Assembly (NCBI GenBank): GCA_026122225.1
Contig: JANEZZ010001909.1
Coordinates: forward strand, 558,001-622,000
Reading direction: 5' to 3'
From: Heloderma charlesbogerti
Lineage: Eukaryota; Chordata; Lepidosauria; Squamata; Helodermatidae
Length of the DNA stretch: 64,000 bases
A program made the translations under genes and the position numbers. Below are positions 5,353 through 63,395 of this stretch, one piece after another (the first letter of the stretch is position 1; every line of letters begins with the position of its first letter). Under the pieces are notes generated by a model. That model made no database searches, was not told the origin of the DNA, and worked only from the letters and a program-made list of their open reading frames with translations.

Positions 5353-5731
5353 GCCTCTTTAAAGCACCCCTGGAATCCAAGGGGCTGTGTGCACTGGCTA
5401 CTCCGAGTGCAAAACTTTATACAAGTGCAGAAAAACCCACGGAATAGGCAGCAGGGCAGAGGACAGAGACGGGGCCTCCGGAGAGGGCCTACAAAAGGAC
5501 AAAACAGGCAGTTTAGAAGGCTGAAAGTGAGCAGGCAGGGGACTGCAGCAGTGGAAGAGTAAAGACTCGGGGCCAACACCAGGCAAGCACCAGAGAGTGA
5601 CCAATTAGGGATCAGGTCCCGGGCGCAGAAGTACCAGGATGGGCAGACAGCAAGGCAAAGAGGTTGGCGCTGATTGAAACAGAGACGAGGCTGGAGAGGC
5701 GTCCCGGTTAGGGGAGAAGCAGAAGGTGAGG

Positions 5732-6269
5732 ATGGGGGCCCAGCCAGGGAAGAAGTCCTGGACAGCTGTGAGCTCCTCACCTCTGTGTGTGGTGGGCTCC
5801 CCAGGTTGGCCTGCCAGTCAGCTCTGCCTCTCCGTCGGCTTCTTCCTGGTGGAGGTGGTGGCCAGCCGAATGACGGGGTCCCTGCTTCTGCTCTCATGTG
5901 CCTTTCAAACCCTAGCAGGTGCGCTGGCATTAGCGGTGGCCTTGGCAGATGCCCAGCTGGCTGCTGGAAGGTTCCCCAGAGAGAGGAACACCTTTGGGTG
6001 GGTACGAGCCCCAATTGCCGGCATCCTGGTCAGTGCGGTGTTCCTGAGTGCCTTGTGCCTGGCTCTCGTGCCTGAGGCGCTTCGCCGGGTAGCTGATCTG
6101 CGGGCCACGGAGCACATGGTGGCACTGATGGGGATCGGGGCCATGGGGATCCCCATCCACCTGGCCAGGGCAGGGTTGCAAGAGAGGCATCCCCAAGTTC
6201 AAGGCACCAGGTATTGCTGCAGCAGGATGAAGGTCATCCAAGCAGGAAGCTGTGCCCAGGAGATGGAAG
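5732..6269 (+). CDS. ZnT1-like gene, coding exon 1
   Basis: Codes for residues 1-179 and ends in phase 1 at a strong donor (GGAAG then GTGAGT). It covers TM1 to TM4. A 5' non-coding exon may exist upstream but none could be defined. A (TG)n tract begins just inside the intron. Confidence 0.85.
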
Positions 6270-7698
6270 GTGAGTCTGTCCAGGTGTGTGTATGTGTGTG
6301 TGTGTGCATGTGTGTATACATGTATGTGCATAGGAGAGGAATGCAATGGGAGGAGTCAATTTGATGGACTGCCTAATCCAGAGTTCCTGAAAACTGGTCT
6401 CTGAGGACCCAAGGAAAAGGAGAGAAGGAAACAGTGGAAAACATTATGATCCCTAGATGTTTCCACTGTATGATGAAGAGGCAAGCCTGCTTTTTTCCCT
6501 TCTTCTTCTGAAAAATTGCCTCTTCAGCAGTACAGGCAGCTGCAGCAGGATGCTAGAACTCAGGATAATGGTCCCATGAAGCTGATTTTGGACAGGACCA
6601 GGACAGGCATGTTCTCCTTCACCCAACGTAATAATGTATGAATCTCCCCACGGCAAGAGGGGTCTATAGCTAGCAACTTAGATGGAGGATAGGACCTAGG
6701 ATAGCAAAATGGAACCCCCGTAATCAAAGGCAGGTGACTTCTGAATACTGAATGCTGGAGATGAGCACTAGGGGAAGGTGTCCGCATCGCCCTTCACACC
6801 CCATTTCTGAGGTTCCCAAAGGCACCTGGTACCTGCTTTGCGGAACAGAATACTGGACTGGGGTGGACCTTGGGTCTGATCCAGAAAGACAGCTCCTCCA
6901 TTCTCATTTCTGGGACACACTCCCCCATGTGTGAAAACGTTTAAGACCTTCATTTGACACACTTGTTCTTCCTGCTCTGCAGATCTGCTGGGGAACGGAT
7001 CCTCAACAAATGGACGGCCCTGGATGGAGGAGAACAGGGAAGATGGCACCGTGTCGCCTGCAGAGAACCCCGGTCAGTGGCAGACACTTTGCCATGGCTG
7101 GATGATGGCTTGTTTTGGCCCTGTGGCTGTCCTTCTGTATTCTCTCGCTTTCCACCTGCTGTGTCTGGGCCGTGTGGCCTGCTTCAGCCACTGCTCCAGG
7201 TCCCCATGTTGGGCCTGGCATGCTTCTGAGCCATCACAGCATGAACGACCCCCTTGTTGGCTGCTCTACCTGGACCCCGGGCTTGCCGTGGCTGTGGCGG
7301 TGGCTCTGCTGCGTGTGGCGTGGCCTGCCATGCATGGCTCAGCCCTGGTGCTCCTGCAGGCCATGCCAGAGAAGCTGGACCTGCCGCTGTTGGAGCAGCA
7401 CCTACGGGCCACGGAAGGGGTAGTGGCCGTGCTGGAGCTCTGCGTGTGGCAGCTGGATGGCCCCAGCAACTTGGTGGCCACAGCCCACGTGGCCTGCCTC
7501 AATGTGGCTGCTTATGAGGCAGTAATAAACAGGGTCCAGCGGGTGTTCTGTGAGCACGGTGTCCATGTTGCCACCGTGCAGCCAGACCTCGGGGCTTGCC
7601 CGGGTGGGGGGTGCCACAAAAGATGGGGCAAGGCCCCGTGCAAAAAAGGCCTAACCCCCTGCCCTGTTATGATCATGGAGTATGAGACCACAGTGTGA
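5732..7698 (+). CDS. ZnT1-like (SLC30A family) membrane protein, two exons, metal-site residues lost
   Basis: Joining 5732-6269 to 6983-7698 gives 417 residues. The first ATG has A at -3 and G at +4. The N-terminal half follows the SLC30A1/ZnT1 pattern closely: TM1 about residues 28-48 (VEVVASRMTGS), TM2 about 49-75, the diagnostic NTFGW at 86-90, then TM3 and TM4 to about 148. The second half has TM5/6 and a cytosolic C-terminal domain that includes VWQLDG, ATAHV and HVATVQP. ZnT proteins exchange Zn2+ for protons using an H-x-x-x-D pair in each of TM2 and TM5. Here TM2 reads FQTLAG (Q59, G63) and TM5 aligns G218/A222, so all four ligands are missing. The His-rich loop is also absent, and the usual His in the C-domain HELHVWQL region is C333. 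Introns and frames are clean and there is no stop, so decay is not obvious. Inference: a transport-dead paralogue, perhaps a heterodimer partner or regulator. It ends in ETTV. The exact orthologue is unknown. Confidence 0.85.
6284..6332 (+). repeat. (TG)n-rich microsatellite
   Basis: Imperfect TG/CATG repeat at the 5' end of the ZnT1-like intron. The rest of that intron (6333-6982) shows no recognisable repeat. Confidence 0.85.
6983..7698 (+). CDS. ZnT1-like gene, coding exon 2
   Basis: Follows a consensus acceptor (ttcctgctctgcag) and restores codon phase exactly (G from exon 1 plus AT gives Asp180). It codes for residues 180-417: a short hydrophilic linker, TM5/TM6 and the cytosolic domain, ending at TGA 7696-7698. 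Two exons with a split in the TM4-TM5 loop fits the compact SLC30A1 layout. Confidence 0.85.
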
Positions 7699-8794: not shown

Positions 8795-9135
8795 ATATAT
8801 TGCAACAAAGAGTCTTGTGGTACCTTAAAGACTAAGGGTGCAATCCTATGCATGTTTATTCAGAAAAAAAAGTCCTATAATTCCCAGCATGCCCCAGATC
8901 AACATCACTGGCTGGGGAATGCTGGGAGTTGTAGGACTTTTTTTTTTTTTGGTCTAAACTTGCATAGGATTGCACCCTAACACTTTTCTTCTGGCATAAG
9001 CTCTCATGGACACTGTCCACTTCATCAGATGCAAGTGGACTGAGTCCACAAAAGATTATGCCAGAATAAACTGATTGGCTTTTAAGGTGCCACAAGACTC
9101 TTCGTTGTTTTTGCCACAAGAGACTTAACACAGCT
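8795..9135. repeat. 'caaagagtcttgtggtaccttaaagactaa' repeat, interrupted
   Basis: An element that starts 'caaagagtcttgtggtacc' and ends with the inverted 'ggtgccacaagactcttcgttg', common in reptiles. It is split by the 142-bp insertion at 8836-8977. A piece of the same family is at about 53695-53750. Confidence 0.65.
8836..8977. mobile_element. Harbinger-like MITE nested in an older repeat
   Basis: Perfect 11-bp terminal inverted repeats GGGTGCAATCC / GGATTGCACCC, flanked on both sides by the trinucleotide TAA (8833-8835 and 8978-8980). It is palindromic internally (gtcctataattcccagcatgcc against ctggggaatgctgggagttgtaggac). A 3-bp TWA duplication is the hallmark of PIF/Harbinger elements; the superfamily call is inferred from that. 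Confidence 0.75.
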
Positions 9136-9474: not shown

Positions 9475-12400
9475 CCACTGGATGTTCAGATGCTTTATTG
9501 CTTGCCAGCTGCAGTGGAGGAAGGCGGGAGGAGGGCTAGCTGGGGACGGCAGAGGGGAAATCAGGGATCGGCCAAGGCTGCTGCACCCTTTTGGACGATT
9601 CTATCATAAGCTGCCCCCCAATGGCCCCTTCATATCCTGCGGGAAGAAAGGACAGGATTAGTGCCCTGCCCCAGTAAGCGGAGGGCTACTCACAATTTTG
9701 ATGTTGTATAGTTCATGGAGTATAAGCCTTCTAGACTTCTGACACATTGGCTGGGTTCACACAACACGATAACCCACAGTCAGGGTTGAGTATGGGTTGA
9801 GTGTGGGTTGTCATAATTGAGCCATGGGTTGTTGTTGAACCGTGGGTTGTTGAGCTGTCTGAACCCAGCTGTGCTAACAAACCATGGTTTGTTAACCACA
9901 AACAACCCATGAAGAGATTCCATGGTTTGTTGTTGGGTTGTAAACTGTGGGTTCGTGGTTAATAAACCATGGTTTGTTAGCACAGCTGGGTTCAGACAAC
10001 ACAACAACCCATTCTTCAACAACAACCCATGGCTCAATGACAACCCACACTCAACCCATACTCAACCTTGAGTGTGGGTTATCGTGTTGTGTGAATCCAC
10101 CCATTTGCTGCCCCTAAAACACGGGTGGGGAACCTTTGGCCTGTGGGCTGCATTAGGTATGCAAAGCCTCCTCATCCAGCCCGCAGAGACCCCTGTGGGT
10201 ATCCCACTCCCTTCCCCAAAACCCAGGGCTGGCCAAAGACATTTTGGTGCCTGAGGCAAAGAACAAGATGGCACCTCCCTCCCATTTCATATGCAAAGCT
10301 GACTGGCCTGGCTGTTGAATAATTCTTCAACACTGGCAATGGGACAACCTCCCCCACTGTGCTTGAAGACAGCAAACTAGCTTAGGGGGCACAGGGCAGG
10401 CCATGTAGCCCACAGCCCTCTCCTCCAACCCCTTGCTGTTGCCTGAGGCAACTGCCTCACTCTGCCAAACGGTAGGGCTGGCCCTGCCCAAGCCCTGCAC
10501 TATGGTTTGCCCTGGGACCTTCTGCAGTCCACCTTAAGCAACAGCCCCTCCCCAGAACAGCCCCTGCCTTGAATCAGACCATAGGTCCATATTGCTCCCT
10601 CCAAAGACAGCCGTTCCCCCAGCCCCAGGCAGAGCAGTCTTGTCCCGGCCTGCTCCCTTGCGAGCCAGGGGTTGACGTGGGGGGTGGGGCCAAGCAGGCG
10701 CTCTTCCACTGAGATATGGGCCTTGCCCAAGTGGGAAGCTCTCCGAGGCTTCAGGCAGAGAGGCTTGCCCAGCCGTGTTGACCTGGGATCTGCTGGGGAT
10801 TCAATCTAGAAACTTTCCCACGCAGAGCTTATTCAGAGGAAGATGGTTTATACGAGGGGTGCAGCAACTCAGGCTCACAGGGCAAATCCGGCCTGCCTGG
10901 GGTCCCAAGCCAGCCATCCAGAGTTCCCCAGATGGCCATGCCCCCTCCCACTGGCGCCAGCCCTCTCCCACCTGGTACCTGGACGTCTTGATGCATAAGA
11001 CATGGCCTTAAGAACCTCAAACGGGTGCTGCGTCCATCACGACCCCTGGCATCAGATCTTCTTCCCCCTCTAGGTCCAACACCAATGTGGTTTTTGCTTC
11101 CAGTGCCGGCTCTGGTGTGGGGTCTGCTGCTGGTTTCACCTCCCCCTCTGGTGGTGGCTGCACGTCTGCCTTTGCCAACGAACCTGGCACTTGCTCAGGA
11201 TTGATCCTGGCCCTGTTCCTCAGGGACAGTCTAATGCCATTGCAGATACTTCGTACTTTTTCATTGGTGTCCACGTACCCATCACCGGTCTTGGAAGGAG
11301 GAAGAAGAGACTCCTTACTGCCCTAAATAGTCCACCCACATGCTTCTGCAGAACAGCCCATGAGACAGTGCAGTACAGTGGTTAGAGCGGCAGACGATGA
11401 TTGGGGAGACCTGGCTTCAAATCCCCACTTGCCCACAAACCATCCTAGATTACTCTAAGCCAGTCGCTCTCACTCTGCCTAACCTACCTCACAGGGGTGT
11501 TGTGACAATAAAAGGCTTGGGGTGGCATATGTGCCATCTGAGCAATTTGAGGTGAGGATGGGATAAAAACCCTACCGCTGCCTCTGGTCCAACGTGTTTT
11601 TGAAGTGTTACCAAAACCCCCACAATCCTGTATAACAAAGGCAAAAATGGGATATATGTATACACTCCAGGGAGTGATCCCTCCTTCAGACTTCCTTCAG
11701 CTCTTTGAAAACCTTATCAGCTCATCACTATCTTATTCATGCATGCATGGGAGCACCCCATTTTCCCTATGGGTCCACAGGTGGCATCTCTTTACCACCC
11801 ACCAGCCAGAATCAAATGCATGCCTCCACATGCACAGCACCCTCCAGACAATCCTCAGATGTGTGTGTGTGTGGGGGGGGGGACTTGCCAAATCAAAGAG
11901 CCCACTCAGTACTTACATTCTTAGAGTGCAAAACCTCGCCAGCCTCTGGGAGAATGATCTCAAAAGCACCACGTTCAGCGACTTCCCCGATCTGGAGGAG
12001 TCCAGGGAAGAATCGAGAGGGACAGAGAAAATCCTCACTGGGTGATCTTGGGCCAGTCACTATCTCTCAGCCTAGGCTACCTCACAGGGTTGTTGTGAGC
12101 ATAAAATGTGGGCGTGGGGAAACCAGTTATGCTGCACCGTGCTCCTTAGACAAAAGGGCTGGATTTAAATGTAATAATAAACATTCATATTAGTGCACCG
12201 TGGGTTTCTGTCCAAGTGTTCCCAAGTGTTCCCCACTGTATGTTACAGAAGGGGCACATGCTGCCCATACTATCCTCCCCCAGATGTGTTGGAATACATT
12301 TCCCATCATCCCCAGCTAACATGGCCACTGTACAATAACCCATCCTCCACTGATTTAAAAGCCAAGAGAGAGATGATACTTTTAGTAAATGATATACTTG

Positions 12401-15000
12401 GAGGGAGAATGTATATATAAAGGCACAATCCTATGCATGCTTACACAGAAAAAAGTCCTGCAATTCCCAGCATGCCGGCCATGCTTTTTTCTGTGTAAGC
12501 ATGCATGGGATTGCGCCTTAATTGTCCTAAAAGAGTTTACCCACAGTTCAAAATATACCTCGGCATCTGTGACGTATGTGTGGAACAGCAGGTCACGCAC
12601 CACCTAGTGTGGCTTAATGTTTATACGCATGCATTTAAATGCATGTGTGCTAGGGCGATCAAGCTACATGTCTCCCCACACTTACGAGATATGCAGCACG
12701 ATCCTACACTTGTTTGCTCTGAAGCATGTCTCACTGTGTTTCATGGGATTTATTCCCAGATAAGCACGCATATGACTGCAGCAAAAGTAGGAACAATGAC
12801 CACAGATGTAGAAACTGCCCGTGGTAAATAGGAAAAATTTCTATTTTTTAGAAATAGAAATTTGAAGTTAGAAGTTTCTTTGACTTCTAACTGGGGCCAA
12901 TGGAATAGGGAAGGTGTCAGCCTGCCCCAGCCTAGCGCCCTTCAGTTGTGGTGGACTACAACTCCCATCATCCCTGGGGATGATGGGAGTTGAGGTCTCT
13001 GCAGCTGAAGGGCACAGATTTGGGGGAAGGTTGCCACAAGGCAAATCTACATTTGCTCACTTGCTCGGAATGAACACACAGCTGAATGTTCCCTTTTATA
13101 AAAAAGGGAAAGGGAAAGAAAGGTGGGAAGAAGATAAACCTGCCCTGCATGTAGAAAACTAGCAGAACAGGGTGCAGCCTGATATAAAAACTTTCCTCCT
13201 GGTTTGCTAGTTTGTATTACTTTCGGGGAGTTAATTTTGTTTTTTTTAATGGGGGGGAATCATTTAAAAAATGACACCCTAGCACTTGTCTGAAATGGTA
13301 CAGTCCGGTTTACCACCTCAGGACTGTACCACCTCTTTCTGGCAGCTGTAGACCAGGCTTTAGCAGTGGCACTTGGAGGGATCGTCGTGCTGTCAGGAAC
13401 TCAGGGCAAATTACCCCCTCCTTTCTTCCCCAGTACTGGGGGAACTACATCCCTCCCTTCCTCCTCCCACCACCCTGAGACCTTGCCCCCACCCCCCTCA
13501 AGTGACTTACAATTTCCAGCTTGTTTGGGAAGCATTTTTCCAGGAGTTGTTTAAGCTGGAAGAACTGGAGAGATGGATCACAGCAGAACGGAGTCAGTTT
13601 TTTCTCCCCCATGTGCGTAGGGGCGGGGGGAAAGTACACAAAGTTCTGCTCCTGAACCCTATTGGGCGAGCAGAGGCACGTACCCCCAACCCTCAACACT
13701 GGAGTGGCAAAAAATAATGCACAGAGGGCAATTTTAAAACATGTGGGAGGAATAAGGAAACACAGAAGGTGTGACAGTTAAGGGAAGTTTAGTATGTGGG
13801 GGGGTGTCAGGACAGAAGAGGACTGAACAGAAAGCAGGCTATTATGGAGTCCTTCTGCAGGGCTACTTACCCGGGTTTTGTACCCTCAGGTGCCTCTACA
13901 AAACAAAACCAACAAAATGAACAGTCTGTGTGTAGCCAACTATTTTTTAACTGCCCCTTTAACCTCCAACTTGTCCTTAAGGTAAATGCACTCTGCCCAT
14001 GCTCTGAGCCACTTTCATTCATTAGGACTTCGCAGATATGGGGGTTGGGGCCCCGCTGTTTAAAACGGTTTGGGGACTTTACCCTCCATCACATTAACCC
14101 CCTGGTGGAGGCTCAGCCTCTGCTGAAAGACAGAATCATCAGCTCTGTACTGGTCAATTCATCCAGTCCAAAACGAAGTAAATAACTTGGGACATTAAGC
14201 CACACCATATGCTACATAGACAGGAAGGCCCTTTGTGGGTGTCCCTGCCATTTGATGCGAGGCAGGTGGCTACCAGAGATAGGGACTTCTCAGTGGTGGC
14301 TCCCCAGTTGTTGGAATGATCACCCCCAAGAGGTTAACCTTGCACCTCCCTTCTTCGAGAGACAACTTTAACCCTTCCACCTGTTCTGTGCTGTTTCTAA
14401 GATGTCCTAGCATTTCAGCTTATTTTGTCATAATTTCATATTTATGTTTTAATCGTTTATTTCATTTTTGTAAACCACCTTAGGTATACAATGAAAACTT
14501 GATTTAAAAATACTTCTAACAAACAAGCATGACACCCTCCACTCCCTTTCCTTTTGTCCTAATTTGAAGCCTCCCCAAAAGACATCATAACAGGGCACCA
14601 GTCCAAATTGTGTCTCTCGCCCAGATTATGAGGGAGTGGGGAGAAAGCCAACTAAAAAACTTGGGATAAGGGTAGGGTAGGAGGGTGACCCTTCATGCCT
14701 TCAGAGGGGCTGCTTTCCCCAGCCAGGTGCCTTCCAGATGTCACTGGACTACAAGTCCTGTCATCCTTGACCATTGGCCATGGCAGCTGTAGTTCAAAAC
14801 ATCTGGAAAGCACTAGGTTGGGGAAGGTTTCCCGTGTGGTTGATTGACAGAGAGACTTCATGCTTCCAGGAGACAGGGAACCAACACCAACATCACTATC
14901 CCACCTCACCAGAAAAGGATCTTCACTCGGAGCAGCGAGGCTGAAGACATGGCATCTTCTAGGGTTGGAGCGATCCACTCCCACCTGCCTGGACCTGGGG
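9475..15000 (-). CDS. Selenoprotein W-like gene with two in-frame UGA codons (predicted U-x-x-U)
   Basis: Five coding exons, 14950-14910, 13895-13871, 13564-13511, 11991-11917 and 11289-11017 (468 bases, 155 residues plus stop), join in frame through GT..AG introns, followed by a terminal exon from 9636. Landmarks match the SelW family of thioredoxin-fold oxidoreductases: strand RVKILF, redox turn, GYKTRFFQLKQLLEKCFPNKLEI helix, GAFEI strand, LHSK and GDGYVDT. The Sec codon TGA (residue 17) lies where SelW has Sec. The first redox Cys, normally TG|T or TG|C across the exon 1/2 junction, is here TG|A (residue 14), so the motif is U14-G-T-U17. A SECIS-like hairpin and an AATAAA signal lie in the terminal exon. 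A Pro/Glu-rich tail of about 55 residues extends past the usual SelW end. Alternatives are a Ser/Cys-less pseudogene or a sequence error at 13895. Family call is firm; double Sec is predicted, not shown. Confidence 0.82.
9494..9499 (-). terminator. Polyadenylation signal of the SelW-like gene
   Basis: AATAAA on the - strand (caagcAATAAAgcatc), about 60 bases beyond the SECIS-like hairpin, which is the usual arrangement in a short selenoprotein 3' UTR. Confidence 0.8.
9555..9620 (-). promoter_or_regulatory. SECIS element (form-2-like hairpin)
   Basis: Read on the - strand: ATGA at 9607-9604, then 11 bases to an unpaired AAAA (9592-9589), a small extra stem GGgTG/CAgCC, and the return strand ending in TGAT (9563-9560). 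ATCGtCC pairs with GGcCGAT to form helix II, and the flanking G-run and C-run can form helix I. The ATGA..AA..TGA core with 11-12 bases between ATGA and AA is the defining signature. Pairing has a few mismatches; a folding program or a SECIS search tool would settle it. Confidence 0.75.
9752..10102. repeat. Large perfect-looking palindrome (foldback MITE), copy 1
   Basis: An arm beginning 'tgggttcacacaacacgataacccaca' is mirrored about 345 bases later by 'tgtgggttatcgtgttgtgtgaatccaccc'. The interior is also mirrored, with repeated 'aacccatgg' and 'ggtttgtt' units. Related copies are at 20.45 and 54.05 kb. This copy lies in the last intron of the SelW-like gene, just upstream of the SECIS exon. 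Confidence 0.8.
10210..10490 (-). repeat. Dispersed repeat, family C, copy 1
   Basis: The hallmark is 'gggctggcc..cattttg..gcctgaggcaaa..acaagatggc' at one end and 'gcctgaggcaactgcctcactctgcc..tagggctggccctg' at the other. Other copies are at 16.2, 17.9, 23.6, 26.2, 29.3, 35.8/36.4 and 49.1-49.5 kb. The family was not identified. Confidence 0.65.
10560..10810. repeat. tRNA-derived-type SINE fragment
   Basis: Contains 'gaatcagaccataggtccata', 'gcaggcgctcttccactgagatatgg' and 'ggattcaatctagaaactttccca', the decayed A/B-box-like and tail parts of a reptile SINE also seen at 43.6, 52.3 and 59.2 kb. 10855-10990 then holds a piece of the 'gccaaatccggcc..gttccccagatggcc' repeat shared with 40.9 kb. 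Confidence 0.5.
11017..11289 (-). CDS. SelW-like gene, coding exon 5 with C-terminal extension
   Basis: Acceptor cctccttccaag. The exon opens with TGDGYVDTNEKVRSIC, which aligns with the KGDGYVDTESK end of SelW, and then runs on for about 55 residues rich in Pro, Glu, Ala and Asp that SelW lacks, to TGA at 11017-11019. An internal GAG/GTGAAA donor could remove the second half of the tail. Confidence 0.8.
   Translation of the reverse strand, partial: TGDGYVDTNEKVRSICNGIRLSLRNRARINPEQVPGSLAKADVQPPPEGEVKPAADPTPEPALEAKTTLVLDLEGEEDLMPGVVMDAAPV
11355..11570 (+). mobile_element. tRNA-derived squamate SINE (Sauria-type)
   Basis: Head 'cagtgcagtacagtggttagagcggcagacgatgattggggagacctggcttcaaatcccc' with A- and B-box-like parts, then 'cctaacctacctcacagggttgttgtgacaataaaa' and a short tail. 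It lies in intron 4 of the SelW-like gene. Confidence 0.8.
11917..11991 (-). CDS. SelW-like gene, coding exon 4
   Basis: 75 bases, phase 0 at both ends, between ctcctccag and GTAAGTACT. Codes IGEVAERGAFEI and ILPEAGEVLHSKN, which match SelW's (E)GTPQATGFFEV and GKLIHSKK segments; the exon is one codon longer than expected from human SelW. Confidence 0.88.
12030..12185 (+). repeat. Partial tRNA-derived SINE (body and tail)
   Basis: 'actgggtgatcttgggccagtcactatctctcagcc..ctcacagggttgttgtgagcataaaatg' corresponds to the second half of the Sauria-type SINE; the tRNA head is missing. It ends close to the acceptor of SelW-like exon 4. Confidence 0.7.
12421..12518. mobile_element. Short Harbinger-like MITE
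   Basis: 98 bp, terminal repeats AGGCACAATCC / GGGATTGCGCCT, flanked by TAA at 12418-12420 and 12519-12521. It is the same family as 8836-8977 with a shorter centre. A related but decayed element covers about 12685-12785. Confidence 0.72.
12915..13010. repeat. Palindromic 'actacaactcccatca' element
   Basis: 'gtggactacaactcccatcatcccTGGGgatgatgggagttgaggtc' is an almost perfect short foldback. From 13030 to 13510 (intron 3 of the SelW-like gene) the only other point is a 'ggactgtaccacctc' motif near 13320 that resembles the tandem repeat at 43 kb. Confidence 0.65.
13511..13564 (-). CDS. SelW-like gene, coding exon 3
   Basis: 54 bases, phase 0 at both ends, between gatccatctctccag and GTAAGTCAC. 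It codes FFQLKQLLEKCFPNKLEI, equivalent to the amphipathic helix YLQLKKKLEDEFPGRLDI of SelW, with the same number of residues. Confidence 0.9.
13871..13895 (-). CDS. SelW-like gene, 25-base micro-exon 2 with the Sec codon
   Basis: Only 25 bases, between a T-rich acceptor ending tttgtag and the donor GTAAGTAG. The first base (A, position 13895) completes a codon begun as TG in exon 1. The remaining codons are GGC ACC TGA GGG TAC AAA ACC CGG, read G-T-U-G-Y-K-T-R. The other candidate acceptor two bases on (tagag) would shift the frame into early stops, so the 25-base version is the only workable one. Confidence 0.85.
14230..14510 (+). repeat. L2-like LINE ORF2 end plus 3' tail
   Basis: 'agggacttctcagtggtggctccccagttgttgga' translates to the RDFSVVAPQLL ending of LINE ORF2, followed by an A/T-rich 3' tail with 'tttcatttttgtaaaccacctt'. 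It sits in intron 1 of the SelW-like gene. Confidence 0.55.
14715..14830. repeat. Palindromic 'actacaactcccatca' element
   Basis: 'ttccagatgtcactggactacaagtcctgtcatcc..ccattggccatgg..gtagttcaaaacatctggaaagcactaggttggggaagg' forms the usual foldback, ending 80 bases from SelW-like exon 1. Confidence 0.65.
14910..14950 (-). CDS. SelW-like gene, coding exon 1
   Basis: 41 bases: ATG at 14950-14948, then SSASLLRVKILF and two bases TG before the donor GTGAGGTGG. RVKILF is the first beta-strand (VRVVY in SelW). The split codon TG| plus A from exon 2 gives TGA. An upstream ATG four bases earlier is in another frame. The 5' UTR start is unknown. Confidence 0.82.
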
Positions 15001-39931: not shown

Positions 39932-40792
39932 TTACAGCTGCTCCTCGCTCCGGAATGAGCTGTTGGCCGCCCCACCCAGGCCCGGTTCACCCTCCAGGAT
40001 GTTATCCAGGGACCCGTGGGGGAGACGTTTCTTCTTGCGGCAGCAGAAATGCCATGCCAAGGCAGAGATGACTACCAGGACAACAGCAGATGCCAGTCCT
40101 GCCGCGATGTAAGCGTAGGGCATCTGCCAGGCCGGGGTTCGGACAATCTGACATGGCCCATGCCCCTGGTCACCGTCGTCTGTGCGGCTGGACCCGGCCT
40201 GGTTGGAGGCGACGATACAGAACAGGTATTCCTGATCGGGTGCCAACCCCGAAACCACCGTCAAACGGAAGGTGCTGTTAAGGGCCGGGCCGGAAACGAA
40301 GTCCCCGTTGACGGGACGGTACTGCAACCGGTATTCTTGCACTGTGGAAGAGGGCGCACACCAGTGCAAGCTGGCTCCGGTTTCGCTCACATGGACTGCC
40401 TGCAGGCGGGGTGGTTCGGGGGCCACATGCGGGCCAGTGATCCCGGGGCACGAGCACCCACTGGCCCAGCTCAGCTCCGCACACGGCACCTGAAGGTGCT
40501 GGCAGTGGTCGTAGTTGCAAGGGCGAGGCAGGGGCCGTGGGGGGCCGGGCGTATGGGGCTTCACGGTGCTGTCGTAATCATAGTCATCTGAGTAGTCCTG
40601 GGAAGACTGGGCCCTGGCGGGCGGGGACGTCCTCTCTTTGTGCACCGCTGGGGTGCGGCTCCCCGAGGGATGAGGGAAGAGGCGGTTCTCTTTGAGGGGG
40701 ACAGGCAAAGGGTGCCCCATGCTGGTTGGCGACCCCAGGGGGCAGAGCCTCAAGATCCAGGCTGCCGCCAGGAAAAGTGCTGGGATTTGCAT
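39932..40792 (-). CDS. LRRN4CL: LRRN4 C-terminal-like protein (single-pass membrane protein)
   Basis: One coding exon, 286 residues. It resembles the LRRN4 C-terminal region without the leucine-rich repeats. In order: a signal peptide (about 1-24, ALFLAAAWILRL), a Pro-rich stalk with an acidic Tyr cluster at 66-74 (DYSDDYDYD, a possible tyrosine-sulphation site), a Cys-rich segment (92-115), one fibronectin type III domain (about 126-217, with SLHWCAPS and YLFCIVASN), a transmembrane helix (about 226-250) and a short basic tail (CCRKKKR, then SLDNILEGEP). The function of the human protein is poorly known. The start lies 5 bases inside an exon whose acceptor is cctctcttaacag (exon start 40797), so a non-coding 5' exon must exist. 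Lying next to BSCL2 on the same strand matches human 11q12.3. It is longer than I recall the human protein being, mainly in the stalk. Confidence 0.94.
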   Translation of the reverse strand: MQIPALFLAAAWILRLCPLGSPTSMGHPLPVPLKENRLFPHPSGSRTPAVHKERTSPPARAQSSQDYSDDYDYDSTVKPHTPGPPRPLPRPCNYDHCQHLQVPCAELSWASGCSCPGITGPHVAPEPPRLQAVHVSETGASLHWCAPSSTVQEYRLQYRPVNGDFVSGPALNSTFRLTVVSGLAPDQEYLFCIVASNQAGSSRTDDGDQGHGPCQIVRTPAWQMPYAYIAAGLASAVVLVVISALAWHFCCRKKKRLPHGSLDNILEGEPGLGGAANSSFRSEEQL

Positions 40793-40899
40793 GGGTCCTG
40801 TTAAGAGAGGGGTGGGGAGAACACAGTTTGGGGGAAATTAGCATTTGAGATGTATTATATATTATACCATAACACTGGTTTATACAGCACCTTAGAGCA

Positions 40900-58600: not shown

Positions 58601-61498
58601 TGGTGTCCTCCAGATTTCTTGGTCTACAATTCCCATCATTCTCAGCCAGCATGGCCACTGGCCATGCTGGCTGGGAATGATGGGAGTTGCAGTCCAGGAA
58701 TGATGGGCATTGTAATCCAACACAAGGCCATGCTGGCTGGGAATGACGGGAGTTGCAGTCCCAAGAATAATGGGAGTTGCAATCCAACGCATCTGGAGAG
58801 CACCAGGTTGACAAAGGCTGGCTTTCAAGTCATTTTACATCGTGCTCCCAGGAACTTTGTACTGCGGAGAGAAGTACATACAAGGCTCCCATGAGTGCCT
58901 TCGATGCACCGCCCTCCAAAATTAGAGATATCAGGCCTACTTGCTCCCTTTATTGGGTGCAAGATGTAGCTTCTTGAGTTCCTGGATACAGGATTTCAAT
59001 TATCACAGAGGGGTACATGCAACTCAAACTATTTTTTAAACTTATCAGGAGGAAATTGCAGTGTGTGTTTGTGGGCATGCTACGCAGCTGTTCAAGCATC
59101 TGGTGGTTTAAAAGGAGGCAAGCCTGGATAAGCTCCAGAGAAGAGAGGGGACACTTTAAAAAGCTCAGTGAGAGAGCATGGAATAGTCCCTGGCATCTCC
59201 AGATAGAAGGATCAGGCGGTAGGCAATGGGAAAGACATCTGCCGCAGGTCCCGGAGAGCTGCTGGCAATTTTAATTGTTCTGAACCGCCCAGACAGCTTT
59301 GGCTATTGGGCAGCACAGACATGTAATAACTAAAAGCAGCCAATATTGACCTAGACGGACCAATGATTTGACTGGTGACAAGGCAGCTTCCTAACAGTAT
59401 TCTGCCTCTGAATCTCAAGGTTCCAAATAACTCTCCCTGAATCCTGATTCAAGATTGAAAACACCACTCCTGCCCCACCCCACGGGCACTACCTGCTCCC
59501 ATCCTCACCGCAGTCCAGTGAAATGGGCGTGAATTCGCAGCTGGGCCCCGTATATCTGGATCTTTGTGGTCTGAATTTCTATCACAGCACCGATTGTTGG
59601 AGTATACTACAGAGCAGGAGAGAAATAAAGGTCAGTTGTTCATCCCTTGGGGGAGGAAGAAGATTGCAAACAAGTTTTGCCCACCAAGAACACAAGGTCA
59701 CCCCTTGTCCACATCCCAATTTGCTGCGAAGGAAGGTCTCTGCATCAAGACTTGCCAATTACACTATTTTTGAAAAAGGGCACGCTACTGGTGTCAGGGT
59801 CCATCTCTCCCCCCGCTCTTGAATCTTCTCTAGCCTGCACACCCCACTCTCTGTTTGCAGATGTTTGGAGAACTGGCGAAAACAGAAGCATTCTATTCCT
59901 CCAGAACATCTCCAGTTCGGCAGTGTCAGGAGCGCCCTAGCGGCCTCTTTCAGTCTACTCCAATAGCCAACTCAAGACACAGACAAAAGGATTCTTTTCA
60001 AGGCTCTAATCCTTTTACAACTTAATGACTCTTTCAGATGCTAATCACCAGTGACTAAGCAATGAACAGCAGAGTAGCCTATGCTCCAGGTTAGGCAGTT
60101 GGTCCCCGTTTGAAGGAGAATCACTTGCAGACCCTGAACTTATGGGCTAGGGAGAGTTCCTCCCTCTTTCCCTTGGGTAGGGTCCATGGGACGCGACCGT
60201 TGCTTGTGCGCCGAACGGGCGCTACGCCTCCTTTCTGCGCCCTCCATCGCTCGTCGCTCCCTGCATCGAGTGTCTAGCAAGCCCCACTCCCGCACTCTCT
60301 CACTGCCAGGGTAACTATCTATCTCAGGAATGCTGGCAGGAGGAATCTCTGCCAGCTGCTGTGCCTGTGAGGGATGAGCGGGCTCCTCTCCCACTGATTG
60401 CTGTTCCTCCTCAGAATCAGAACTGCTCTGGGGTTCTATGGGCTCAGTTTCCACCCTGACAGGCAGGCAATTACGAGTTTCAGCTTTGCAAGAGCTCAGC
60501 TGCTTCAACCAGATGTCCTTGCAAGGGCTCAGTTGCAAACGAATTAAGAGGAGACTGGGAAGTGCATAAAACTGAGCAAACCACCTCTTACAAGTCTCAT
60601 ATAGATACCCTGGAGAGAAAAACACACCCTTCCAAGGGCAGTCGCTATAGCCATCACCTTCTTCCCCTCTAGCTTTCAGACCAAGATCCACCTAGTCTCC
60701 TCTTTCCAAATTGCAGTCAGACAGATTGCTCTAGTGCAAATTTCCCCAACCAGATGCATGGGACTACAACTCCCAGCTTCCAACACATCTAGAGGGTACT
60801 AGGTTGAGGAAAGCTGCATTTGTGCAAGCTCACAAGACAAGGTGGCACTAGCCATCCCGTTTGTCCCTAGCATTTTATCCCAGGAGGAACAGACAGCTTG
60901 TGTGGCCAAGTAGGTAGACCAGGGATGGGGGATCATGCAGCCCTTTAGATCTTGTTGGACTGCAACTCCCATGAGCTCTCACCACTGGTTAAGCTGGCTA
61001 AGGTTGACAGGGGTTGCAGTCCAACAAGAGAGCCACACATTCCCCACCCCTGAGCTAGACCGCTGGTTTTAGACCAGAGACCTGGGTTCAAATCCCTGCT
61101 CAGCCATTAGTCTCAGCCTATTTCGCAAGGCTGTTGAGTTGGGCAGGTGGCATGTGATGCACTCAGGTCTTTCGGAGGAAGGGTAGGGATAATTTAAAAA
61201 AGTAATAACATATTAAAAAAAGTTTGAGAAACTGCGTTTGAACACTGGTGCAGAGAGAAATGCGGGGGGCGGGGAGAATGTCCACAGCAATGAGGGACTG
61301 CATGGGAACCGGGAATTCCAGTCTCTTCAGAGGGCAAAGGAACACAGCGATGTCGTCCCTCACCGAGTCTTCCTTGTAGTCCGAGTACAGCTCGACCTCC
61401 ACCGTCTGCTTCTGCTCTGTAAAACCAGCCAAGAAGAGGCTGGCAAAAGCCAGGGTGTCGAGGATCTGCAGCAGGCCTGAACGGTAGTGGAGCATCGC
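52675..61498 (-). CDS. BSCL2: Seipin, last six coding exons (5' part outside the window)
   Basis: Exons 61498-61364, 59606-59509, 58517-58376, 57154-57079, 55941-55861 and 53022-52862 join in frame (693 bases, 230 residues plus TGA). All introns have GT..AG ends. Seipin is an ER protein that oligomerises at ER-lipid droplet contacts and organises triglyceride flow into nascent droplets; human mutations cause congenital lipodystrophy type 2 and motor neuropathy. Visible here are the end of the lumenal beta-sandwich ([55 protein letters not shown]), the second transmembrane helix ([16 protein letters not shown]), the [10 protein letters not shown] juxtamembrane turn, and an acidic, divergent cytosolic tail ending in RQRSICSSS, as in the conserved seipin C-terminus (CSSS). 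The first membrane helix and the glycosylation site lie beyond 64000. A solo LTR, hAT elements and many MITEs fill the introns. Confidence 0.96.
52693..52698 (-). terminator. BSCL2: BSCL2 polyadenylation signal
   Basis: AATAAA on the - strand (acttaAATAAAagtt region), 164 bases downstream of the BSCL2 stop codon, in sequence free of repeats. It predicts a short 3' UTR ending near 52675. Confidence 0.75.
52862..53022 (-). CDS. BSCL2: BSCL2 terminal coding exon
   Basis: Acceptor tttcttcgtgcgcag. Codes [18 protein letters not shown] through to RQRSICSSS and TGA at 52864-52862. The first two bases complete a Glu codon split from the previous exon. Confidence 0.93.
53055..53315 (+). repeat. Palindromic half-element and SINE scrap
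   Basis: 53065-53130 'cccaacccactgcactctagctgtgttgggctacaactcctatcatcc'; 53225-53310 'ggcctcttcaaatggagagga..gaaaaaaggcaggatatgaatgcaat' (SINE end). Inside the last BSCL2 intron. Confidence 0.55.
53359..53628. mobile_element. Non-autonomous hAT element (CAGGGGTG type), 270 bp
   Basis: Ends CTGGGGTGCTGAATC / GAGGTTCAAGATCCCTG, flanked by CAGTAGGG (53351-53358) and CAGTAGTG (53629-53636), an 8-bp duplication with one change. Same family as 30329-30646. Confidence 0.75.
53867..54062 (-). other. Unassigned exon-like ORF in the last BSCL2 intron
   Basis: On the - strand a frame free of stops reads [16 protein letters not shown] and continues to [11 protein letters not shown], bounded by a possible acceptor (ctgctgtgcag, 54063) and a possible donor (ACGAAG then GTAGGCGG). 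No part is a recognised repeat, and the neighbouring foldback MITE begins beyond it. It has no place in seipin as known. It could be an alternative exon, an old gene fragment or chance. Confidence 0.3.
54060..54425. repeat. Large foldback MITE, copy 3
   Basis: Mirrored 'gtgggttaatcgagaattaaacaacccacac' and 'gtgtgggttgtttaaccctcgattaacccac', with outer 'ttcacacaacatgg' and 'catgtcatgtgaac'. Related to 9752-10102 and 20445-20800 but more diverged. Confidence 0.65.
54738..55145. repeat. Longer Harbinger-like element with GC-rich interior
   Basis: Ends 'agggcgcactcctatgg' and 'ccataggattgcatcctt' resemble the Harbinger-like MITE termini, but the 400-bp interior is GC-rich and mirrored only in part ('gatggccgcctctgtacttggaggcgacc'). 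The 136-codon ORF across it looks incidental. A hAT-related scrap ('aggaatgtatgagaaatttgcttcagttcatttt') follows at 55175-55310. Confidence 0.5.
55520..55815. repeat. hAT-type (CAGGGGTG) element, decayed
   Basis: Starts CAGGGGTGTTGAACTTC at 55520 and ends near 55815 (cttgacacccccag); the body 'ccaatttgcatggcc..cctggcagtaattgcttgg..gcttctctgaaattgaattt' matches 62.4-62.5 kb. It ends only about 45 bases from the donor of the BSCL2 exon at 55861. Confidence 0.6.
55861..55941 (-). CDS. BSCL2: BSCL2 coding exon (acidic tail)
   Basis: 81 bases between acceptor gtttcttccacag and donor GTGTGTGTGC. Codes [20 protein letters not shown] and then EEELSRA, the Glu-rich cytosolic tail seen in vertebrate seipins. 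Phases agree with both neighbours (1 base carried in, 1 carried out). Confidence 0.88.
56140..56790 (+). repeat. L2-like LINE ORF2 end plus 3' tail, with MITE half
   Basis: 'caaaatgcagtggccagattgata' (QNAVARLI), 'cacttgcactggctgc' (LHWL), 'ttcaaggtgctggtttt' (FKVLVL) and 'agggccttcttggtggtggcccc' (RAFLVVAP) occur in the right order. 56515-56590 carries a Harbinger-like MITE end. The tail ends in aataaataaataaa at 56770. Confidence 0.7.
56885..57035. repeat. Palindromic 'actacaactcccatca'-type element
   Basis: 'gcaggggtgggagatatgtggctttccagatactgttgaaccacaaatttcatcagcc..gatgggacttgcagtccaacaacatctggagagccacatgtcccctatccctgccc', a foldback that reaches to within 45 bases of the BSCL2 exon at 57079. 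Confidence 0.65.
57079..57154 (-). CDS. BSCL2: BSCL2 coding exon (cytosolic linker)
   Basis: 76 bases between cttcctgcttag and GTAAGGGG. Codes [19 protein letters not shown] and then VVIPKE, following the membrane-proximal turn. Sequence conservation is low here, as expected for the seipin tail; splice phase is what ties it in. Confidence 0.82.
57267..57621. mobile_element. Non-autonomous hAT element (CAGGGGTG type), 355 bp
   Basis: Ends CAGGGGTCTTGAACGTC / GAAGTTCAACACCCCTG, flanked by ATTTAGAG (57259-57266) and ATTTAGAC (57622-57629). It is the longest and best preserved copy of the family, in a BSCL2 intron. Confidence 0.85.
57775..57980 (-). mobile_element. tRNA-derived squamate SINE (reverse)
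   Basis: 'gtcccacctttcagtcaaggtggcatac..taccctcacaacaaccctgcaaagtaggttaggc..gactggcccaaagttacctggcaag..cagtcctaatatgtagccaccacacc' is a full copy on the complement. Confidence 0.8.
58376..58517 (-). CDS. BSCL2: BSCL2 coding exon (second transmembrane helix)
   Basis: 142 bases between tgtctccctgtag and GTGAGAGAC. Its first base completes Arg from the previous exon (CG|A). It codes [31 protein letters not shown] and [14 protein letters not shown], the most conserved part of seipin: end of the lumenal domain, TM2 and the cytosolic turn. Confidence 0.97.
58590..58825. repeat. Multiple palindromic 'actacaactcccatca' units
   Basis: At least four half-units in alternating orientation ('ggtctacaattcccatcattctcagcc', 'ggctgggaatgatgggagttgcagtcc', and so on), as if the foldback core had been duplicated. 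It lies 75 bases upstream of a BSCL2 acceptor. Confidence 0.7.
59180..59420 (+). repeat. tRNA-type SINE, interrupted
   Basis: 'tggaatagtccctggcatctccagatagaaggatcaggcggtaggcaatgggaaagacatctgccgc' and the tail 'gacctagacggaccaatgatttgactggtgacaaggcagcttcct', with a LINE-tail scrap ('ttgttctgaaccgcccagacagctttggctattgggcag') between. Confidence 0.6.
59509..59606 (-). CDS. BSCL2: BSCL2 coding exon (lumenal domain)
   Basis: 98 bases between ctgctctgtag and GTGAGGATG. Codes [20 protein letters not shown] and then [13 protein letters not shown], the last strands of the lumenal beta-sandwich, which in seipin bind phospholipid and form the ring interface. Confidence 0.95.
59924..60461 (-). mobile_element. 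Solo LTR, 538 bp, in a BSCL2 intron
   Basis: Ends TGTCAGGAG..CCCTGACA, flanked by GGCAG on both sides (59919-59923 and 60462-60466). Same family as 35829-36401; both carry the boundary-crossing ORF on the - strand ([20 protein letters not shown] onward, about 106 codons). It sits in the same orientation as BSCL2. Confidence 0.88.
60735..61205. repeat. Two palindromic elements and a SINE scrap
   Basis: 60740-60820 ('ttccccaaccagatgcatgggactacaactcccagc..acatctagagggtactaggttgaggaaagc'), 60920-61060 ('ggatcatgcagccctttagatcttgttggactgcaactcccatgagc..gttgcagtccaacaagag'), then SINE body 61065-61195. Confidence 0.65.
61364..61498 (-). CDS. BSCL2: BSCL2 coding exon (lumenal domain, first in window)
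   Basis: 135 bases between tgtcccccttgcctag and GTGAGGGAC. Codes [37 protein letters not shown] and YSDYKEDS, including the hydrophobic helix of the lumenal domain that contacts lipid. The preceding exon (the strand with the N-glycosylation site) was not found up to 64000, so the next intron is longer than 2.5 kb. Confidence 0.97.
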
Positions 61499-63244: not shown

Positions 63245-63395
63245 AAACTGGCATTCCCCAACCTGCTGCCCTCCAGATGTTTAGGGGTGACAACTCCCAG
63301 CAGTCCTGACCATTGGCCATGTTCGCTGGGGCTGATGGGAGTTGAACTCCAAACATCCAGAAGGCACCAGGTTGGGGAAGCTGAATATAAAGGTT
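63245..63395. repeat. Palindromic 'actacaactcccatca' element
   Basis: 'ttccccaacctgctgccctccagatgtttaggggtgacaactcccagcagtcc..gggctgatgggagttgaactccaaacatccagaaggcaccaggttggggaagc'. From 63400 to 64000 I find no exon or known repeat. Confidence 0.7.

Follow-up and report, generated by a model that had tools for sequence, protein, structure and literature searches.

A SelW-like gene of Heloderma charlesbogerti with two in-frame UGA codons in its redox motif, a candidate for a two-selenocysteine protein

The window analysed here, a 64 kb stretch of the Heloderma charlesbogerti genome (JANEZZ010001909.1:558001-622000; the assembly searched comprises 2.30 Gb in 3,246 contigs), carries on its minus strand a SelW-like gene in which both ends of the four-residue redox motif are encoded by UGA, the codon that can specify selenocysteine (Sec, U). 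Direct reading and scripted re-joining gave five coding exons, and the gene model of a preliminary description of this DNA proved exact in coordinates and bases. Together with a predicted untranslated exon and a selenocysteine insertion sequence (SECIS), the gene consists of the following features.

14950..14910, minus strand: coding exon 1, MSSASLLRVKILF followed by the TG of a split codon; starts with ATG and ends TTC TG before gtgagg
13895..13871, minus strand: coding exon 2, 25 nt; its first base A (13895) completes the first UGA; preceded by tttgtag, followed by gtaagt
13564..13511, minus strand: coding exon 3, 54 nt, FFQLKQLLEKCFPNKLEI
11991..11917, minus strand: coding exon 4, 75 nt, IGEVAERGAFEIILPEAGEVLHSKN
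11289..11017, minus strand: coding part of exon 5, 273 nt including the stop; TGDGYVDT... and then a C-terminal extension; stop TGA at 11019-11017
9636..9494, minus strand: predicted untranslated exon 6; acceptor cccgcag before 9636, AATAAA at 9499-9494; donor of exon 5 likely at 10971
9615..9548, minus strand: SECIS, AUGA ... AAAA ... UGAU; Rfam SECIS_1, 28.0 bits, full model 1-64

Exon 2 reads (TG)A GGC ACC TGA GGG TAC AAA ACC CGG, with the second UGA at 13888-13886 followed by GYKTR, and the joined motif is MSSASLLRVKILF-UGA-G-T-UGA-GYKTRFFQLKQLLEKCFPNKLEIIGEVAERGAFEIILPEAGEVLHSKNTGDGYVDTNEK... (ILF-UGA-Gly-Thr-UGA-GYKTR). Ahead of the final TGA the frame contains these two TGA codons and neither TAA nor TAG. 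All four coding introns are GT-AG; with a splice-donor score matrix the donors of coding exons 1 to 4 rank at percentiles 99.43, 99.79, 96.93 and 99.4 among all GT of the minus strand, and the exon 1 donor CTG/GTGAGG (the slash marks the exon boundary) scores 9.0 bits. The plan published for SelW and SelV, with six exons, coding sequence in exons 1-5, and the end of the 3' untranslated region and the SECIS in exon 6 (PMC3316567), is found in the window gene as well, the exon 5-6 join being a prediction by simple consensus scoring for which other candidate sites exist. The extension at the C terminus (11205-11020, minus strand) adds about 62 residues rich in E, P and A, whereas SELENOW1 of the same genome ends before such a tail; its GC content by codon position is 0.77/0.44/0.53, a codon-periodic pattern (permutation p 0.0008). 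That the gene as a whole arose by chance is excluded. At its 5' end we also noted an out-of-frame ATG at 14955, five bases 5' of the start, which opens a 10-codon reading frame ending inside exon 1, and, near 14995, a candidate acceptor (ccccag), which suggests an untranslated exon upstream of exon 1.

The SECIS postulated in the preliminary description was borne out by the SECIS_1 match of 28.0 bits in predicted exon 6 (E=0.0064 for 1,621 bases and 4,227 families). Of the 53 Rfam matches with E no higher than 10 in the whole 64 kb, SECIS_1 was the sole SECIS, with E=0.25 for all families and, by division, about 6e-5 for that single family. The AUGA, the apical A run and the UGAU are all present. 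The score lies below the Rfam gathering score of 35 and the match is absent from the gathering-level scan; this is to be seen in proportion, since the control, the SECIS_1 match 3' of the same genome's SELENOW1, scores lower still, at 24.6 bits (E=0.71 over 20 kb with all families).

Domain and structure searches, for which Cys was written at both UGA codons, place the protein in the Rdx family (Pfam PF10262, 51.8 bits with a cut-off of 22.6) and in the SelT/SelW/SelH subfamily (NCBIfam CXXU_selWTH, TIGR02174, 54.8 bits with a cut-off of 34.2). The closest solved structure is SelW 2npb (E=1.9e-17; 37 identities across 84 columns), followed by human MIEN1 (C17orf37; 2.1e-4). In place of the CxxU/CxxC redox motif of SELENOW and Rdx proteins the gene has UGA-GGC-ACC-UGA, and at the DNA level its two in-frame motif UGAs and its SECIS, the latter below the gathering score, agree with SELENOW of the U-x-x-U type. 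A protein database search returned no relative (1 candidate, zero matches), and the Pfam Rdx model used alone on the genome gave zero matches, missing the window gene itself too.

Genome searches, in which best candidates only were scored, revealed two matches to the SelW of 2npb, on contigs C1136 and C1164. The C1136 gene is an ordinary SELENOW1: its exon 2 reads tttcttgtag/T GGG GCC TGA GGA TAC AGT CCC AAG/gtaagc (25 nt), and it has the lengths of 25/54/75 for exons 2/3/4 in common with the window gene. Its exon 1 was chosen among three pattern matches by SelW likeness. When U, and likewise the Cys that is mutated in 2npb, is entered as C, mouse SelW shares 60/83 residues with the C1136 gene versus 38/81 with the window gene; the genome's SELENOW1 is thus the C1136 gene, which is closer to SelW, and not the window gene. 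Neither is the window gene MIEN1, as separate MIEN1 exons, 77% and 86% identical to human MIEN1, lie on C2781; the window gene is identical to SELENOW1 at 37/82 positions versus 24/78 to human MIEN1. A genome search with the domain of the window gene itself yielded four matches, three of which were its own exons; the fourth, on C1225 (E 7.29), adjoins LINE-like (long interspersed nuclear element) antisense sequence and was discarded as a chance match. Since SELENOW1 and MIEN1 are separate loci, the window gene is, as judged by sequence, a third Rdx-family gene beside them. The second SelW match, on C1164 (L011, C1164:35601-45600, about 5184-4975, minus strand), is an intronless, decayed retrocopy of SELENOW1 that kept TGT GGG GCC TGA and is a fossil of SELENOW1's Cys state.

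The codon homologous to the first UGA is split by the intron in both genes and differs by one base, TG/A in the window gene versus TG/T (Cys) in SELENOW1. The TG/A codon that the preliminary description had placed at 14910/13895 was confirmed, and its statement that the split codon encodes Cys in SelW holds for SELENOW1 of the same genome. Its further view of U-x-x-U as the sole sensible reading is supported by an enumeration of splicing, which took GT donors with a score of at least 0 within 16400-13960, AG acceptors from 14400 on and ATG codons at most 600 bases from the donor. Among 11,215 in-frame combinations of start, donor and acceptor, 185 were open when no more than one extra TGA was allowed. 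Only one of these 185 places Cys at this point of the motif; it has a five-residue start, a donor score of 0.6 and no first beta strand. Eight combinations have TGA there, including the form described above (donor 9.0) and a W-U-G-T-U variant (donor 7.2). This variant joins exon 1 ending at 14905 to exon 2 beginning at 13893, gains one Trp and retains U-G-T-U. No alternative exon 1 yields Cys with the present acceptor because the third base of the codon belongs to exon 2; a different exon 1, an objection foreseen in the preliminary description, was accordingly no rescue when sought over about 1.5 kb upstream. Restoration of Cys through another exon 1 or cryptic splice sites was therefore rejected, the enumeration having given no plausible case. 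We also discarded as coincidence an intron frame 5' of exon 2, FILLVLFCRGT, whose apparent Cys gives C-x-x-x-U and sits in the polypyrimidine tract; the frame is moreover preceded by TAG with no ATG in between. No further exon 2 turned up in the window: a minus-strand motif scan found only the known one, and tblastn on both strands no other credible one.

The U-x-x-U motif thus hangs on a single base of one assembly, and a genome search with the DNA of exons 2-3 returned one match, itself, so that no second copy was found. Were the A at 13895 a private allele or a mistake of the assembly, and TG/T or TG/C the species norm, the motif would be accounted for; we consider this very improbable, as 13895 lies outside any homopolymer and the other genes of the window have exons that stay open over 228 to 301 codons, both of which speak against an error.

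Comparison with SELENOW1 showed codon positions 1/2/3 to be identical in 54/55/31 of 82 codons, with a saturated proportion of synonymous differences (pS 0.78) and a proportion of nonsynonymous differences (pN) of 0.34. Because pS is saturated at this pN and the extension is codon-periodic, the window gene has been coding for long; long-term constraint is clear from these comparisons, which point to an old, constrained coding sequence. Apart from the extra UGA we found no lesion: the start, splice sites, frame and SECIS core are intact. Nevertheless, the first UGA could be a nonsense mutation in a dispensable gene that was inactivated very recently and has yet to accrue further lesions, which is the chief rival explanation, though in our judgement an unlikely one. 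The window gene could be dispensable given the SELENOW1 that looks intact on another contig, and the genome also contains the decayed retrocopy of SELENOW1. Neutral decay was simulated under assumed parameters, namely a transition bias of 4, 0.12 indels for each substitution and 24 additional essential bases, and the coding sequence stayed free of lesions in 0.62/0.39/0.15/0.0095 of the runs at 0.5/1/2/5% divergence. The 0.39 and 0.15 at 1% and 2% divergence speak for such a recent event, and the 0.0095 at 5% implies that, if the window gene is dead, its death was recent. Inactivation is opposed by the intact start, splice sites, frame and SECIS core, and a UGA within a SECIS-bearing transcript is not a simple nonsense codon.

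The gene and both of its UGA codons are real in the assembly, and the best single explanation of them is a two-Sec protein. On balance we regard the window gene as probably a genuine, long-kept squamate paralogue of SelW that would encode such a protein with a U-G-T-U motif. This reading is favoured by the SelW gene plan, the SELENOW1-like exons, the SECIS, the constraint, the scarcity of splice alternatives and the precedent of amphioxus and an alga. A single transversion would have converted the Cys codon to UGA. Because the single SECIS of the transcript already brings in the Sec machinery, we propose that the added UGA is read as Sec and not as plain nonsense. The thioredoxin-like loop would then hold two selenols able to close as a diselenide, as in SelL, which would replace the selenenylsulfide expected of C-x-x-U. 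Since two UGA codons would be decoded serially, the output is expected to be low and strongly selenium-dependent.

Decoding of successive UGA codons should be inefficient, and the gene might instead be expressed with the first UGA mostly terminating translation, as a selenium-gated brake that yields little or no two-Sec protein. The upstream out-of-frame ATG noted above, with its short overlapping reading frame, would fit such a brake. We nonetheless hold it to be improbable, given that multi-UGA mRNAs do give rise to SelL (two Sec) and to SelP (10 Sec in human and as many as 37 in fish) (PMC12822975, PMC3473315, PMC2397514).

Several observations weigh against a two-Sec protein. Averaged over the time since duplication, the codon-level constraint gives no date for the first UGA; a Fisher test on retained sites gave no signal in either direction (p 0.81). 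No CpG island was found where we looked for one, at the start of the gene. In the SECIS_1 alignment 3/10 pairs of SECIS helix II are non-standard, and thermodynamic folding alone did not recover the SECIS (z +1.85, with 196/200 shuffles equal or better). Two serial UGAs should lower output, and the case for two Sec residues is drawn from DNA sequence throughout. Furthermore, in a vertebrate survey all SelW, SelW2 and SelV proteins have CxxU except for the CxxR of pufferfish, and zero Cys-to-Sec changes are reported across 44 vertebrate genomes (PMC3316567).

The surroundings of the gene contain further protein-coding loci. A UBX domain (62.5 bits) together with a UBA-like match (26.9 with a cut-off of 27) identifies UBXN1 to the left, and the following features were located besides it.

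5678-6361, plus strand: cation-efflux (SLC30-like) domain, between UBXN1 and the SelW-like gene
39935-40837, minus strand: fn3 protein taken as LRRN4CL
61166-61498, minus strand: seipin exons (others in L003)

The open frame running onward to 7695 on the plus strand has no Pfam match and was taken as part of the cation-efflux gene. The order of genes is similar to that of human 11q12.3, which we take to be UBXN1-LRRN4CL-BSCL2, except that the SelW-like gene and the cation-efflux gene lie between these loci; the cation-efflux gene is presumably missing from the human order. The window also holds a LINE with endonuclease and reverse-transcriptase domains, which we assume to be BovB-like, and repeated mir-5408-like hairpins (e.g. 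8863-8946, 12944-13006, 58612-58703 and 63275-63358), all under the gathering score, which are most likely a short interspersed repeat.

We tentatively suggest, as a possibility somewhat short of even, that the UBXN1-LRRN4CL locus harbours an overlooked amniote SelW paralogue with an active-site Cys-to-Sec change, a diselenide-capable U-x-x-U motif and an acidic C-terminal tail, the motif having been gained in squamates or inherited from a chordate ancestor shared with amphioxus. If so, an amniote would have kept or gained a third SelW/Rdx gene besides SELENOW1 and MIEN1, the Cys paralogue in the same genome would serve as a built-in control, and the diselenide and selenenylsulfide forms of one small redox fold could be compared directly. 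A land vertebrate with a two-Sec SelW would also be a counter-example to the vertebrate survey, which reports losses of Sec along the tree and not one Cys-to-Sec event (PMC3316567).

Among known systems, SELENOW (SelW1) is like the window gene in its Rdx domain, the GYK, LEKxFPxKLEI, HSK and GDG-VD motifs, the exon lengths of 25/54/75, the split redox codon, the position of Sec and the SECIS-bearing exon 6. The window gene differs from it by the UGA in place of Cys, by its own locus beside UBXN1 and LRRN4CL, by an exon 1 of 13 residues versus 9, by the extension of about 62 residues, and by a gap of two residues within GEGTPQ as well as two additional residues ahead of AG. Two predicted Sec residues, as in the window gene, were described for a SelW-like protein of Ostreococcus lucimarinus (PMC2375036) and for SelW of amphioxus (PMC3473315), and both have been termed U-x-x-U and entered among Cys-to-Sec events (PMC7539508). 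The earlier view that the window protein is chemically distinct from known members was thus too strong. These hosts are an alga and a cephalochordate, and the likeness to the window gene is drawn from their published descriptions. Literature searches for a reptile or a U-x-x-U SelW brought up no vertebrate case among the papers listed, mostly from non-subscription journals; by these searches the window gene is the first vertebrate indication of a U-x-x-U SelW, but not the first U-x-x-U SelW. SelW2 (fish, frog and elephant shark) and MIEN1/Rdx12 are, like the window gene, further vertebrate SelW/Rdx groups. MIEN1 has GAFEI in common with the window protein; SelW2, compared by description only, has CxxU and is reported as lost before reptiles, with only fish and frog in the survey (PMC3316567). 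SELENOP and SELENOL are described as the vertebrate exceptions to the single-Sec rule (PMC12822975). SelL resembles the window gene in having two Sec residues in its redox motif, which in SelL form a diselenide (PMC12822975, PMC2397514), but it is a Prx-like protein and not a SelW (PMC2398784), and it is restricted to aquatic organisms (PMC2397514).

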